The notes below the pieces were generated by a model that worked only from the letters and a program-made list of their open reading frames with translations, searched no databases and was not told where the DNA came from. From the NCBI GenBank assembly GCA_947630755.1, contig CANRIU010000015.1, forward strand, positions 1-36,543: DNA of 36,543 nucleotides, given 5' to 3'. Position numbers and translations under genes: made by a program. Below, piece after piece: positions 14,783 through 33,250 of the stretch; position 1 is the first letter of the stretch; every line of letters starts with the position of its first letter. This stretch comes from an uncultured Oscillospiraceae bacterium (GTDB lineage Bacteria > Bacillota > Clostridia > Oscillospirales > Oscillospiraceae).

Positions 14783-15086
14783 CTTAAGCGGCAGGCGCTG
14801 ATGCGCCCGCCGCTTAAGTTTGTCAAAGAACTCAAATTCGATATTATTCCCGGCGGCATACGCGTCGGAAAACCCCCTTTTGCCGCCCAGACTGGCCCCG
14901 CAGGCGCCATTTCGGAGCGCAACCGCCCGTAGGGCGGCTCTTAGCGCGGAGATGTGTACGAAGTGCATGGAGGGGACCGACAAATTTCTTCCGTCGACAA
15001 AGGCTTTGCCTTTGCCGACGGCTTGAAAAGCCCGAAGGGCTTTTTCGACAGACCAAAGCGGCAGGCGCTGGTGCGCCTGCCGCTTT
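14783..15086. repeat. Intergenic hairpin-flanked element, copy A
   Basis: Left hairpin 14783-14818 and right hairpin 15055-15086 share the stem GCGGCAGGCGC/GCGCC-GCCGC and flank about 235 bp of non-coding sequence. The first 53 bp of the core (14820-14872) match copy B at 45 of 53 positions without gaps. Inside are further hairpins: CCGCCC/GGGCGG near 14925, GTCGACAAAGGC/GCCTTTGCCGAC near 14993-15020, and AAAAGCCC/GGGCTTTTTCGAC at 15026-15049. No open frame, ribosome site or transposase is seen. It fills the spacer between the convergent genes ending at 14698 and 15114. Confidence 0.65.
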
Positions 15087-30292: not shown

Positions 30293-30332
30293 AAAAAAGG
30301 CGGGAGGGAAATCGAAAGATTTCCCTCCCGCC
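30293..30332 (-). terminator. Left flanking hairpin of element copy B, minus-strand terminator
   Basis: GGCGGGAGGGAAATC and GATTTCCCTCCCGCC form a 15-bp stem at 30299-30332; on the minus strand it is followed by TTTTTTAATT. It would end the minus-strand beta-propeller gene (last codon 30590) and is nearly identical to the right hairpin at 30541. Confidence 0.65.
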
Positions 30333-30577
30333 TCAACTTGTCAAAAAAATCAAATTCAATATTTTTTCCGGCGACATGTGCGTCGGAAAAAATACCTTTT
30401 GTCGCACAAGCGTGCGGCCCTTGGGCCGTGCGCGCAGGGCGACAGTAGGGAGATTTTCACTGAATTTCGCAAAATTCAGTGAAAATCACCCGCACGTTTC
30501 CCCTTGTCGGAAAAGCCCGCAGGGCTTTTTCGACAGTCTAAGGCGGGGGGGAAAATCGAAAGATTTCCCTCCCGCCT
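30299..30577. repeat. Intergenic hairpin-flanked element, copy B
   Basis: Two near-identical hairpins (30299-30332 and 30541-30577) flank about 208 bp of non-coding sequence. The core starts with 53 bp (30338-30390) matching copy A at 45 of 53 positions. Inside are three more hairpins: CGGCCC/GGGCCG (near 30416), GATTTTCACTGAATTT/AAATTCAGTGAAAATC-type (30452-30488) and GTCGGAAAAGCCC/GGGCTTTTTCGAC (30506-30534). No coding capacity is seen. It fills the spacer between convergent genes. Confidence 0.65.
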
Positions 30578-30589: not shown

Positions 30590-30832
30590 TTACGCTGTGT
30601 AGAGCAGGTCAACGGTGCCCTTCGACGCGTCCTTCACGAGGAAGTAGGTCCTCTCGCGCTCGTGGGTCACGCGCCAGTTCATGACACTGTCGACCTTCAC
30701 CAGCTGTGTCGCCAGGAAGTATGTCCTCGGGCCGCAGCGGCTGACGTAGCATATGTCCACCGCCCTGCTGCCGCTCGATGTCCCGGCGAGGCCCTCAAGA
30801 TACGGGGAGTAGTCCGAGGAGGTGACGATCTC
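30590..30832 (-). other. In-frame C-terminal continuation of the propeller protein beyond a TAG
   Basis: Directly after the TAG at 30833-30835 the same frame runs on for 80 codons to a TAA at 30590-30592, reading EIVTSSDYSPYLEGLAGTSS and later ending VKDASKGTVDLLYTA. The stretch repeats the 'RTYFLA/RTYFLV' strand pattern of the protein, so it looks like genuine former coding sequence, 80 residues long. No start codon with a ribosome site is seen in it. Confidence 0.7.
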
Positions 30833-33250
30833 CTACAGATTACCGCTGGTCCTGTCGTACCACCAGACGGAGCCGTCCATTATCCTGAATTTTTCCAGCG
30901 AGGAGTAGAGCATGTAGAAGTCACTGCTTTCATAGTGGCAGGTCACGGTGCCGTCCGGGGCGACCTCGAAGTCTGAGCCGCACAGCTTGTCCATGCGGCT
31001 GACCACCTCGCCGCCGGAGCCGTCATAGTTCACTCTCACGACCCTGCCGCCCTGGAAGAATGACCCGGACCCGGCGGTGGAGCCGTAGGAGAAGTATATG
31101 TAGTCCTCGGAGAAGTATATCTGGGCCACGCAGGCATAGTCGCCCATGGGGAAGGAGTCCGTGTAGAGGTCCGGCTTTGTGGTGTAGAGGTCAAGCCTGC
31201 CCGTGCCGTCGGGCATTATCCGGGAGAGCGTAAGCTTCCCGTCGTAGGCCAGCGTCTCATCGGACCAGGTCTCGTAGTAAATCACGCCATTCCAGACGAT
31301 GACCGGGTCCGCGTCCGAGACGATGATTCTGGTCTTGAGGGTCATGGTGTTTATGGTGCCTATTTCTCTGAGGCCGAAAATCACATATGTCCCATCCGTG
31401 GACACGCCCAGCAGGGCGCCGTGGCCGTGCCTCATGCTGTCGGTGCCGTCAAGGTACATCGAGCAAACATCCGAGTTGACGTCGCAGTAGAATATCCTGC
31501 CGCCGGCTATGGCGATGGTGCCGGAGCCCTTGCCGGTAAGGAGAGTTTCCTCCTCGCCCGTCTGCATATTCCGGCGGACAAGCGCGTTATCGTCGGCCAT
31601 GTAGGGGCTGAAGCTTCCGAAGGAGCCCTGATCGGAGAAGGCTTTACTGGAGTATTTCCAGTAATAGGCGTCGCCGCAGTACTCCACGACGGTGCCGCAG
31701 CCGCCGCTGAGGCCCGCCATCCAGCTCAGGTCCTCCTCCACGACTATCTTGCTCTGGGTCCCCGGGGTGGCGGGCTGGGCGGAGATCACCCGCTCGAGGA
31801 GCCTCTTGGCATAGTACTGGACGGACTCCATACGCTCCGTCCGCTCCCTTGACACCCACCCCGTGGGGATGAGGGCGTCCCTGGCGGAGATGCCCGCCAT
31901 AAGGGACAGGGCCATGGCGCTGCGCATGGTGTCCTGCCCCTCCCGGAGGCGCTTGGAGGGTATGACGTCACCCACCTTCACAAACATGCCCGTTATGGGC
32001 CGGGAGCCGAGGCAGGAGGTTATCGAAACGATGTCGGAGCATATGGTGGCGAAGCTTATCGACTCCTCCTTATCGAGTATGTTTTTCACATCGGGGAGGT
32101 CCTTCACCATCGATGTGCCCAGGCTCCAGGCCGCGGCGGGGCCGCCCCCCGCAATGCTCCACGCGGTCTTCCACAGGTTCACGAACACGTCCTTTGCCAC
32201 GTTCTCATCCAGGACGCCGTCCATCATCTTCTTTGCCTCATTGGCGGCGCGGAAGAGGGCCGGGAGCTCGCCGTAGAGCTCGTCGTCCCTGTCCACGGTG
32301 CACAGAGTGTCCCGCAGGAGCTTTTTCTGAAGGTCCTGAAGGTTATAAAACGCCTTGAAGGTCTCCGCGGCGCCCACAAGGTCCGAGGCCATCCCCGTGG
32401 CGAAGGACACGCCGTCAAAGGCGCTTATGCCCAAGGCCTCGTTCAAAACGCCGATATTGTATTCGCTGCCGCCAAGCGCGGTGCTCATGTAGTCCAGAAA
32501 GCCGGGCAAATCCGCTTCCATGGACGCAAAGTCGTTCTCCGTATGGAAAATCGAGGTGTAGACATCCCACTCGTCCGTGCCGCAGTCGGTCTTAAGTATC
32601 CGCGTGAGGGAGTCGAGATATACCTGCTTCTCCACGGTGGCGCCGTCCACGACGTAGCGCAGGAGGTTGCTGTCGTAGCCAAATATCACCGTGTCCAGGG
32701 CACTGAGGAACAGGAGCGGGTTGTTGTCGCTGTATGCCTCGCTGATATTGAAGCGGTACATGCTGTCGCTGGTGAACTCCATCCACGCGTCGAGGACGGT
32801 GTACTGGCGGTAGACATACATATGTATGCTGTCGCCGGGCTTCTCGCCGAAGGACACGCCGAAGCCCATGAACCGCAGGAAGTGGGGCGCGGACAAATAG
32901 ATCTCGCCGTCGTACTCCAGCATCGGTATCACGTCGCTGTCGTCAAAGTCAAAACCGAACTCCAGCCCGCCGGAAAAGCAGCTGAACCTCACCGGGGAGT
33001 CCTTCGTGGGCGGAAGAAGCATACCGTCGGTGAGGTACGCCAGCATGTCCGCGGCCATGTAGAAGCTCTTTCCCACCACAAGCCCGGGCAGGGCCTCCTG
33101 CCCGTGGAGGTTGGAGTAGACGCTCACCGTCACGGCAACGGGGGTGTCATCCCCGGCGCTGTCCTCGGGGCCGCTCTCCGCCGCAAGGGCGGCGGGGACG
33201 AGGGACAGCGCCAGCGCAAGGGCCAGAATAAGACTTATGGATCTTTTCAT
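30833..33250 (-). CDS. Secreted protein with a copper amine oxidase N-like domain and C-terminal propeller, ended early by TAG
   Basis: 805 residues with a signal peptide (MKRSISLILALALALSLVPAALA). Residues about 55-130 (LVVGKSFYMAADMLAYLTDG to FLRFMGFGVSFGE) resemble the small copper amine oxidase N-terminal-like domain often found in secreted Clostridial proteins. A helical middle region follows, then a beta-propeller-like C-terminal half with repeated 'GRIFYCDVNSDVCSMYLDGTD' type DUF5050-like strands. No catalytic motif is recognised. The ATG at 33250 has a GGGGGG run 8-9 nt upstream, within the end of the preceding lipoprotein gene, so the two are coupled. The last propeller blade is missing because of the in-frame TAG; the frame continues to 30590. 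Confidence 0.72.
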   Translation of the reverse strand: MKRSISLILALALALSLVPAALAAESGPEDSAGDDTPVAVTVSVYSNLHGQEALPGLVVGKSFYMAADMLAYLTDGMLLPPTKDSPVRFSCFSGGLEFGFDFDDSDVIPMLEYDGEIYLSAPHFLRFMGFGVSFGEKPGDSIHMYVYRQYTVLDAWMEFTSDSMYRFNISEAYSDNNPLLFLSALDTVIFGYDSNLLRYVVDGATVEKQVYLDSLTRILKTDCGTDEWDVYTSIFHTENDFASMEADLPGFLDYMSTALGGSEYNIGVLNEALGISAFDGVSFATGMASDLVGAAETFKAFYNLQDLQKKLLRDTLCTVDRDDELYGELPALFRAANEAKKMMDGVLDENVAKDVFVNLWKTAWSIAGGGPAAAWSLGTSMVKDLPDVKNILDKEESISFATICSDIVSITSCLGSRPITGMFVKVGDVIPSKRLREGQDTMRSAMALSLMAGISARDALIPTGWVSRERTERMESVQYYAKRLLERVISAQPATPGTQSKIVVEEDLSWMAGLSGGCGTVVEYCGDAYYWKYSSKAFSDQGSFGSFSPYMADDNALVRRNMQTGEEETLLTGKGSGTIAIAGGRIFYCDVNSDVCSMYLDGTDSMRHGHGALLGVSTDGTYVIFGLREIGTINTMTLKTRIIVSDADPVIVWNGVIYYETWSDETLAYDGKLTLSRIMPDGTGRLDLYTTKPDLYTDSFPMGDYACVAQIYFSEDYIYFSYGSTAGSGSFFQGGRVVRVNYDGSGGEVVSRMDKLCGSDFEVAPDGTVTCHYESSDFYMLYSSLEKFRIMDGSVWWYDRTSGNL

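Follow-up and report, generated by a model that had tools for sequence, protein, structure and literature searches.

How can two spacers of one contig share a related core and still be framed by hairpins that match each other only within a locus? The question is raised by contig CANRIU010000015.1 of an uncultured Oscillospiraceae bacterium (assembly GCA_947630755.1), a stretch of 36,543 nucleotides that was analysed whole and is called the window here. For its two spacers, an original prediction made from the letters alone invoked non-autonomous mobile DNA that targets terminator hairpins and leaves them doubled or, alternatively, a hairpin converted to match its neighbour. Our analysis indicates that both spacers are insertions of a miniature inverted-repeat transposable element (MITE), for which the most likely mover, acting in trans, is an IS1182-family transposase whose own elements carry like ends, a reading to which we assign a probability of about 0.87.

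Each spacer holds a non-coding element of about 200-240 bp (spans including the hairpins, 14786-15085 and 30296-30577), and the 53-bp ungapped core with 45 identities claimed for the pair was reproduced exactly, aligning from 14820 and 30338. Element 1 occupies 14816-15055 on the plus strand, as judged from an nhmmer match at 14821-15051, the alignment and matches in its own genome. It lies between two 30-bp copies of one hairpin, interpreted as a target-site duplication (left 14786-14815, right 15056-15085; 28/30 identical). Element 2, a full-length MITE on the plus strand (30334-30539), starts with CAACTTGTCAAAAAAA, finishes with TTTTTCGACAGTCT and is bordered by 38-bp hairpin copies at 30296-30333 and 30540-30577, identical at 33/38 positions. 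The locus-specific hairpin pairs that had been noticed at both spacers are therefore real.

A dispersed family with duplicated hairpins

Searches of the window's own genome (G000, a draft of 2.19 Mb in 98 contigs; G and L numbers are our handles for genomes and loci) with each spacer returned 81 and 82 matching pieces, and the family is therefore dispersed. Its full-length unit measures about 200 bp and comprises four hairpins. Base counts across 145 full-length copies set the ends at CAGYTTGTCAAAAAAC and TTTTTCGACAGTCT, with sharp junctions; these copies came from fetched loci, were deduplicated by sequence with orthologues between genomes kept separate, and are skewed to relatives of element 2. 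The terminal inverted repeats are imperfect (left CAGYTTGTCAAAAAAC; right, reversed, AGACTGTCGAAAAA), and a pattern built on them matched the own genome 35 times against 3 for a reversed control. The earlier claim that the element encodes no protein of its own is borne out, since no reading frame is common to the 145 copies, whose lengths are spread evenly modulo 3 (53, 49 and 43). The most frequently open frame is uninterrupted in 75/145, and some open frame occurs in 131/145, as chance would give in an element this short and G+C-rich. A promoter-like left end was also considered, and dropped when its second hexamer proved to vary between copies.

Of 34 genomes from the genus, counting the own genome, 26 matched the element at E 0.001, five of these weakly or with few matches (G004, G009, G014, G024, G030). 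The element was unmatched in the other eight (G003, G007, G008, G016, G021, G026, G027, G029), six of which are smaller than 2 Mb. Only one of 26 genomes outside the genus was matched (G042, 13 matches, best E 1.5e-8). A scan of species genomes with a strict pattern gave 109 stretches, and the 80 listed among these all belong to uncultured Oscillospiraceae with isolates named Lapin, which we take to mean rabbit. Viral contigs gave no match to one pattern for hairpin H1.

Do flanks match within a locus throughout this family? Among 29 near-complete copies of the own genome (truncated copies were excluded beforehand), the left-right flank score was at least 39 in 16, where pairs taken across loci reached a maximum of 35, and none of 10000 permutations attained the observed sum. 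The remaining 13 scored 10-22, in the range of cross-locus pairs. In related genomes, 35 of 49 rows exceeded the 99th percentile of cross-locus pairs (four copies are doubled among these rows, L066/L222, L067/L226, L069/L230 and L070/L233, and L231 contributes two matches). Just 12/49 lie above the cross-locus maximum of 52, because a hairpin can be common to different loci (e.g. L218 and L219).

Across the 145 full-length copies, a direct repeat abutting the element exceeded the 99th percentile of the null in 91, where one or two would be expected. Every one of these 91 duplications is different in sequence, and 25 show no mismatch over a length of 20 bp or more. A simple measure classes 73 as palindromes; 70 of these span 15-38 bp, in most cases the whole hairpin. 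Of the 18 non-palindromic ones, 12 measure 6-13 bp, and six are longer stretches in which the hairpins are imperfect or off-centre. Altogether 15 duplications are as short as 6-13 bp (e.g. CACCTCCGTT), those of 6-8 bp being close to the threshold. At L236, L043, L044, L052, L123 and L190 the same stem flanks the element on both sides with oppositely oriented loops.

Sites without the element, each with a single hairpin, had been proposed as the decisive observation, and they are present in related genomes. Joined flanks of seven sites were used as queries for a contiguous match across one hairpin copy, and five sites gave such matches, at identities of 71-91%: L212 (in G001, G002, G006, G019 and G023), L214 (in G001, G002, G013, G019 and G023), L217 (in G001 and G002), L236 (in G012 and G019) and L215 (in G001, extending just 34 bases past the hairpin). 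The query gave no contiguous match for L224 and L306. Five of the matches were aligned base by base, among them L212 with L457, L458 and L460, and L236 with L459. The 36-bp hairpin that is doubled at L212 is single in G001, G002 and G019, with 35/36 bases identical; in G013, as compared with L214, the stem of the single hairpin has diverged. Two further loci tell a similar story. At uxaC, the filled site of G012 has two hairpins (L077) and the sites of G001 and G002 have one (L082, L083). At a locus named S1, two hairpins in the own genome compare with one of the same stem in G032; in G012 and G019 the element has a left hairpin only, and duplication is therefore not universal. For the window loci themselves, orthologues of the neighbouring genes were traced in 18 further loci (element 1) and 13 (element 2); no clean empty site was found among them, and the gene on the far side of the spacer is absent from all.

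At the empty sites, the one hairpin already has the duplicated sequence, and conversion of a hairpin to match its neighbour, the second option of the original prediction, is thus unneeded as a main cause. Its first option, insertion at terminator hairpins with their duplication, is supported by the flanks, by the empty sites and by the coding elements described below.

Coding elements of the IS1182 family

Loci chosen around elements (1.41 Mb at that stage) were scanned for longer elements sharing these ends and duplications; none above 300 bp was found, and the coding insertion sequences came to light in a search for DDE_Tnp_1 genes. Such genes were found in 17/34 genomes of the genus; eight of the loci were read and 30 were tested for an end pattern combined with a duplication. 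Four of the 30 contain elements measuring 1496-1511 bp, whose ends (e.g. CAGTCTGTCAAAAAAC) are similar to the MITE left end CAGYTTGTCAAAAAAC and which are flanked by perfect hairpin duplications of 23-31 bp. The MITE consensus agrees with these four elements at 14-15/16 positions on the left and at 12-13/16 on the right. In the own genome, two identical hairpins of 25 bp enclose an insertion sequence (IS) of 1648 bp whose ends are CAGTCTGTCGACAAAC / CAGACTGTAGACAAAC; the end pattern missed it by one right-end base, and it was examined by hand. All four proteins scanned (L373, L374, L375 and L378; the scan left out L376 and L388) scored 371-440 bits with the NCBIfam model IS1182 (NF033551), over its cut-off of 270.

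Whole-hairpin duplications are thus common to the MITE and the coding IS, and these duplications together with the like ends make it most likely that the element is a MITE of an IS1182-like insertion sequence. The sequences show that the copies are dispersed and have terminal repeats, that whole hairpins are duplicated, that empty sites exist, and that there are IS1182 elements whose ends and type of target are alike. Mobilisation of the MITE in trans by an IS1182-family transposase would account for all of this. An IS1182-family DDE transposase would act on the roughly 200-bp MITE and favour terminator-type hairpins as targets, presumably recognising an extruded hairpin or cruciform as a structure. 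The element would be joined at both feet of the target hairpin, and repair after joining would leave a complete hairpin on either side; targets lacking a hairpin would instead yield a duplication of about 6-13 bp.

Several observations weigh against this picture. The matching of flanks within a locus, although evident in own and related genomes, falls short of a rule, as 54/145 copies remain below the duplication threshold. Among the 73 matched hairpin pairs the loops are direct in 59 and undecided in 8, and inverted in 6; a minor later process may explain these inverted copies. A copy found in G022 at the GH32 orthologue (L432) has unlike left and right hairpins, the left resembling the single hairpin of G015, G018 and G028 and the right being different. 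MITE left ends are variable, with CAGYYTGTCAAAAAA exact in 56/145 copies and found with at most two mismatches in 103/145. On the coding side, 26 of the 30 DDE_Tnp_1 loci lack the pair of end pattern and duplication; the family is broad, and L375, one of the 26, passed by hand. The IS of the own genome agrees with the MITE left end at just 11-12/16 positions (right end, 12-13/16), and the best-matching transposases are therefore in other species. No DDE_Tnp_1 match was obtained in seven MITE-rich genomes (G005, G012, G018, G019, G022, G028 and G033), perhaps because draft assemblies lose insertion sequences. Finally, IS1272, a member of the same family, is reported to remove its target stem-loop and to leave no duplication, whereas hairpins are duplicated here.

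A predicted folded core and the rival explanations

In element 2, four hairpins are predicted on the plus strand: H1 (30360-30394), H2 (30400-30445, limits approximate), the strongly covarying H3 (30448-30491) and H4 (30505-30535), which overlaps the right terminal repeat. Could the element be first of all a structured RNA gene or 3'-UTR element with a function of its own, spread with the help of a transposase, rather than a plain MITE? We consider this unlikely, if less so than the other rivals. The structure was analysed on 140 of the 145 copies, chosen by length (137 distinct rows, related to one another and thus not independent). Of 70 predicted pairs, 35 are formed by at least two Watson-Crick types, each of them in three or more sequences; 14 have at least three types. 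On the plus strand, G-T cells outnumber A-C cells by 852 to 85, a ratio inflated by folding with G-U allowed and by five pairs that are mostly G-T; H3, which is paired alike on both strands, gives 99 to 31. Column by column, G-T is ahead of A-C in 42 cases and behind it in 16, with 12 ties. A strand-specific folded form of the element is therefore plausible, with the reservation that the sequences are related and that a mutational strand bias could produce the same asymmetry.

Gene context also speaks against an RNA function. Among 88 copies with enough flank, 76 could be resolved: 31 lie between genes both on the minus strand, 25 between convergent genes, 15 between genes both on the plus strand and 5 between divergent ones. 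In co-directional contexts the plus strand of the element is thus oftener antisense to the genes (31 vs 15). These contexts fit targets at gene ends and hint at an orientation bias. Convergent placement, as originally described, holds for both window copies; as a general rule it fails (25/76). Rfam 15 gave no match at gathering score in the window, and 22 sub-threshold matches near element 2, none close to its gathering score, were taken as chance. A broader conception is possible but on balance doubtful: a mobile structured nucleic acid whose four plus-strand hairpins are selected, as RNA or single-stranded DNA, and whose shape-reading IS1182-type transposase duplicates terminators, so that mRNA 3' ends would be rebuilt genus-wide without loss of termination.

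Another explanation would place the element beside pre-existing terminators, the hairpins being homogenised later by gene conversion or by template switching between near-palindromes. The hairpins are indeed long palindromes, and template switching could give the inverted loops of 6/73 pairs. This explanation is nevertheless improbable in view of the three element-free genomes whose one hairpin shares 35/36 bases with the duplicated one, of the short direct repeats that abut the element at hairpin-less sites, and of the coding IS with the same perfect duplications.

A transposase of the IS30 family, like that of IS1630, is a very improbable mover, even though IS1630 is reported to duplicate inverted repeats in Mycoplasma (PMC3317919). 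IS30 genes were matched in 11/34 genomes, 10 of them above the cut-off, but G000 has none, and the IS30 copies of the three relevant loci, situated within or next to the MITE, have ends that, by eye, are unlike those of the MITE. IS30-family elements sit inside or beside hairpin H1 at L151 and L162 (G011) and at L152 (G010). The idea of a REP/REPIN-like unit that owes its spread to a Y1 (RAYT) transposase, suggested by a hairpin-rich, dispersed, non-coding element and by Y1 matches in 18/34 genomes (two in the own genome), can practically be set aside, as five genomes with 13-15 element matches each (G005, G006, G011, G015 and G017) have no Y1 match, and the element has target-site duplications in the form of direct repeats as well as terminal inverted repeats, neither of which, to our knowledge, is expected of HUH elements. 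Transposases of IS256 (4/34), as of IS30 (11/34) and Y1 (18/34), were rejected as movers for a distribution inconsistent with the carrier genomes.

Some features are particular to the window. Element 1 retains both family ends, H1 and H4, and differs in its middle, where a second repeated module lies on the plus strand at approximately 14897-15027 (95% identical to G000:C54:2451-2581 and 94% to C6:30914-31043). This module has hairpins of its own and is dispersed elsewhere in the genome (related loci L002-L010). Short derivatives of the element also occur beside hairpins in the own genome (L246, L245, L242 and L240), with H1 and H4 only, with H4 only, or otherwise shortened. The convergent open reading frames (ORFs) around element 1 encode an SLH-domain protein and a GH32 protein; those around element 2 are GH32 and an ORF without Pfam match. 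The latter, on the minus strand (30600-30835), terminates at 30833, roughly 250 bp before reaching the hairpin, and is possibly a broken gene or the product of a sequence error.

Comparison with known systems

Bacterial MITEs are short and non-coding, with terminal inverted repeats, target-site duplications and a coding relative. The element described here shares all of these properties, and differs from the usual bacterial MITE in its four conserved, covarying hairpins and its whole-hairpin duplications. It is therefore of a known kind, with a target behaviour that is unusual and well supported. Among the papers listed, judged by title and abstract opening, no published hairpin-duplicating MITE was found, which is weak evidence of absence. 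An outward hairpin on both sides may render an insertion nearly harmless, which would explain why so many copies are tolerated. With so many perfect duplications, and with empty sites in sister species, the choice of targets by structure can be tested directly, and the conserved folded core raises the question of whether the structure of a MITE can itself be under selection.

A published precedent for the duplication of inverted repeats is IS1630 of Mycoplasma fermentans (four copies with reported duplications of 16-26 bp; PMC3317919), an element of the IS30 family and thus with a transposase of another family. Among the closest known systems are IS1272 and TnSha1 of Staphylococcus, which likewise belong to the IS1182 family, have a DDE transposase and are reported to target inverted repeats or stem-loops by structure, several of these being confirmed terminators (PMC5678879, PMC4923244); the older targets of IS1272 include some that are not inverted repeats. 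Furi et al. (2016; PMC4923244) present terminator hairpins as targets and deletion without duplication, and Wan et al. (2017; PMC5678879) describe removal of the target stem-loop by IS1272 and draw duplication of the whole stem-loop as a hypothetical pathway b. Stem-loop targeting by IS1272 is thus described there as destructive, whereas the elements of the same family studied here leave the hairpin doubled, and most of the insertions seen are MITEs. Our data fit the hypothetical duplication branch of Wan et al. (2017).
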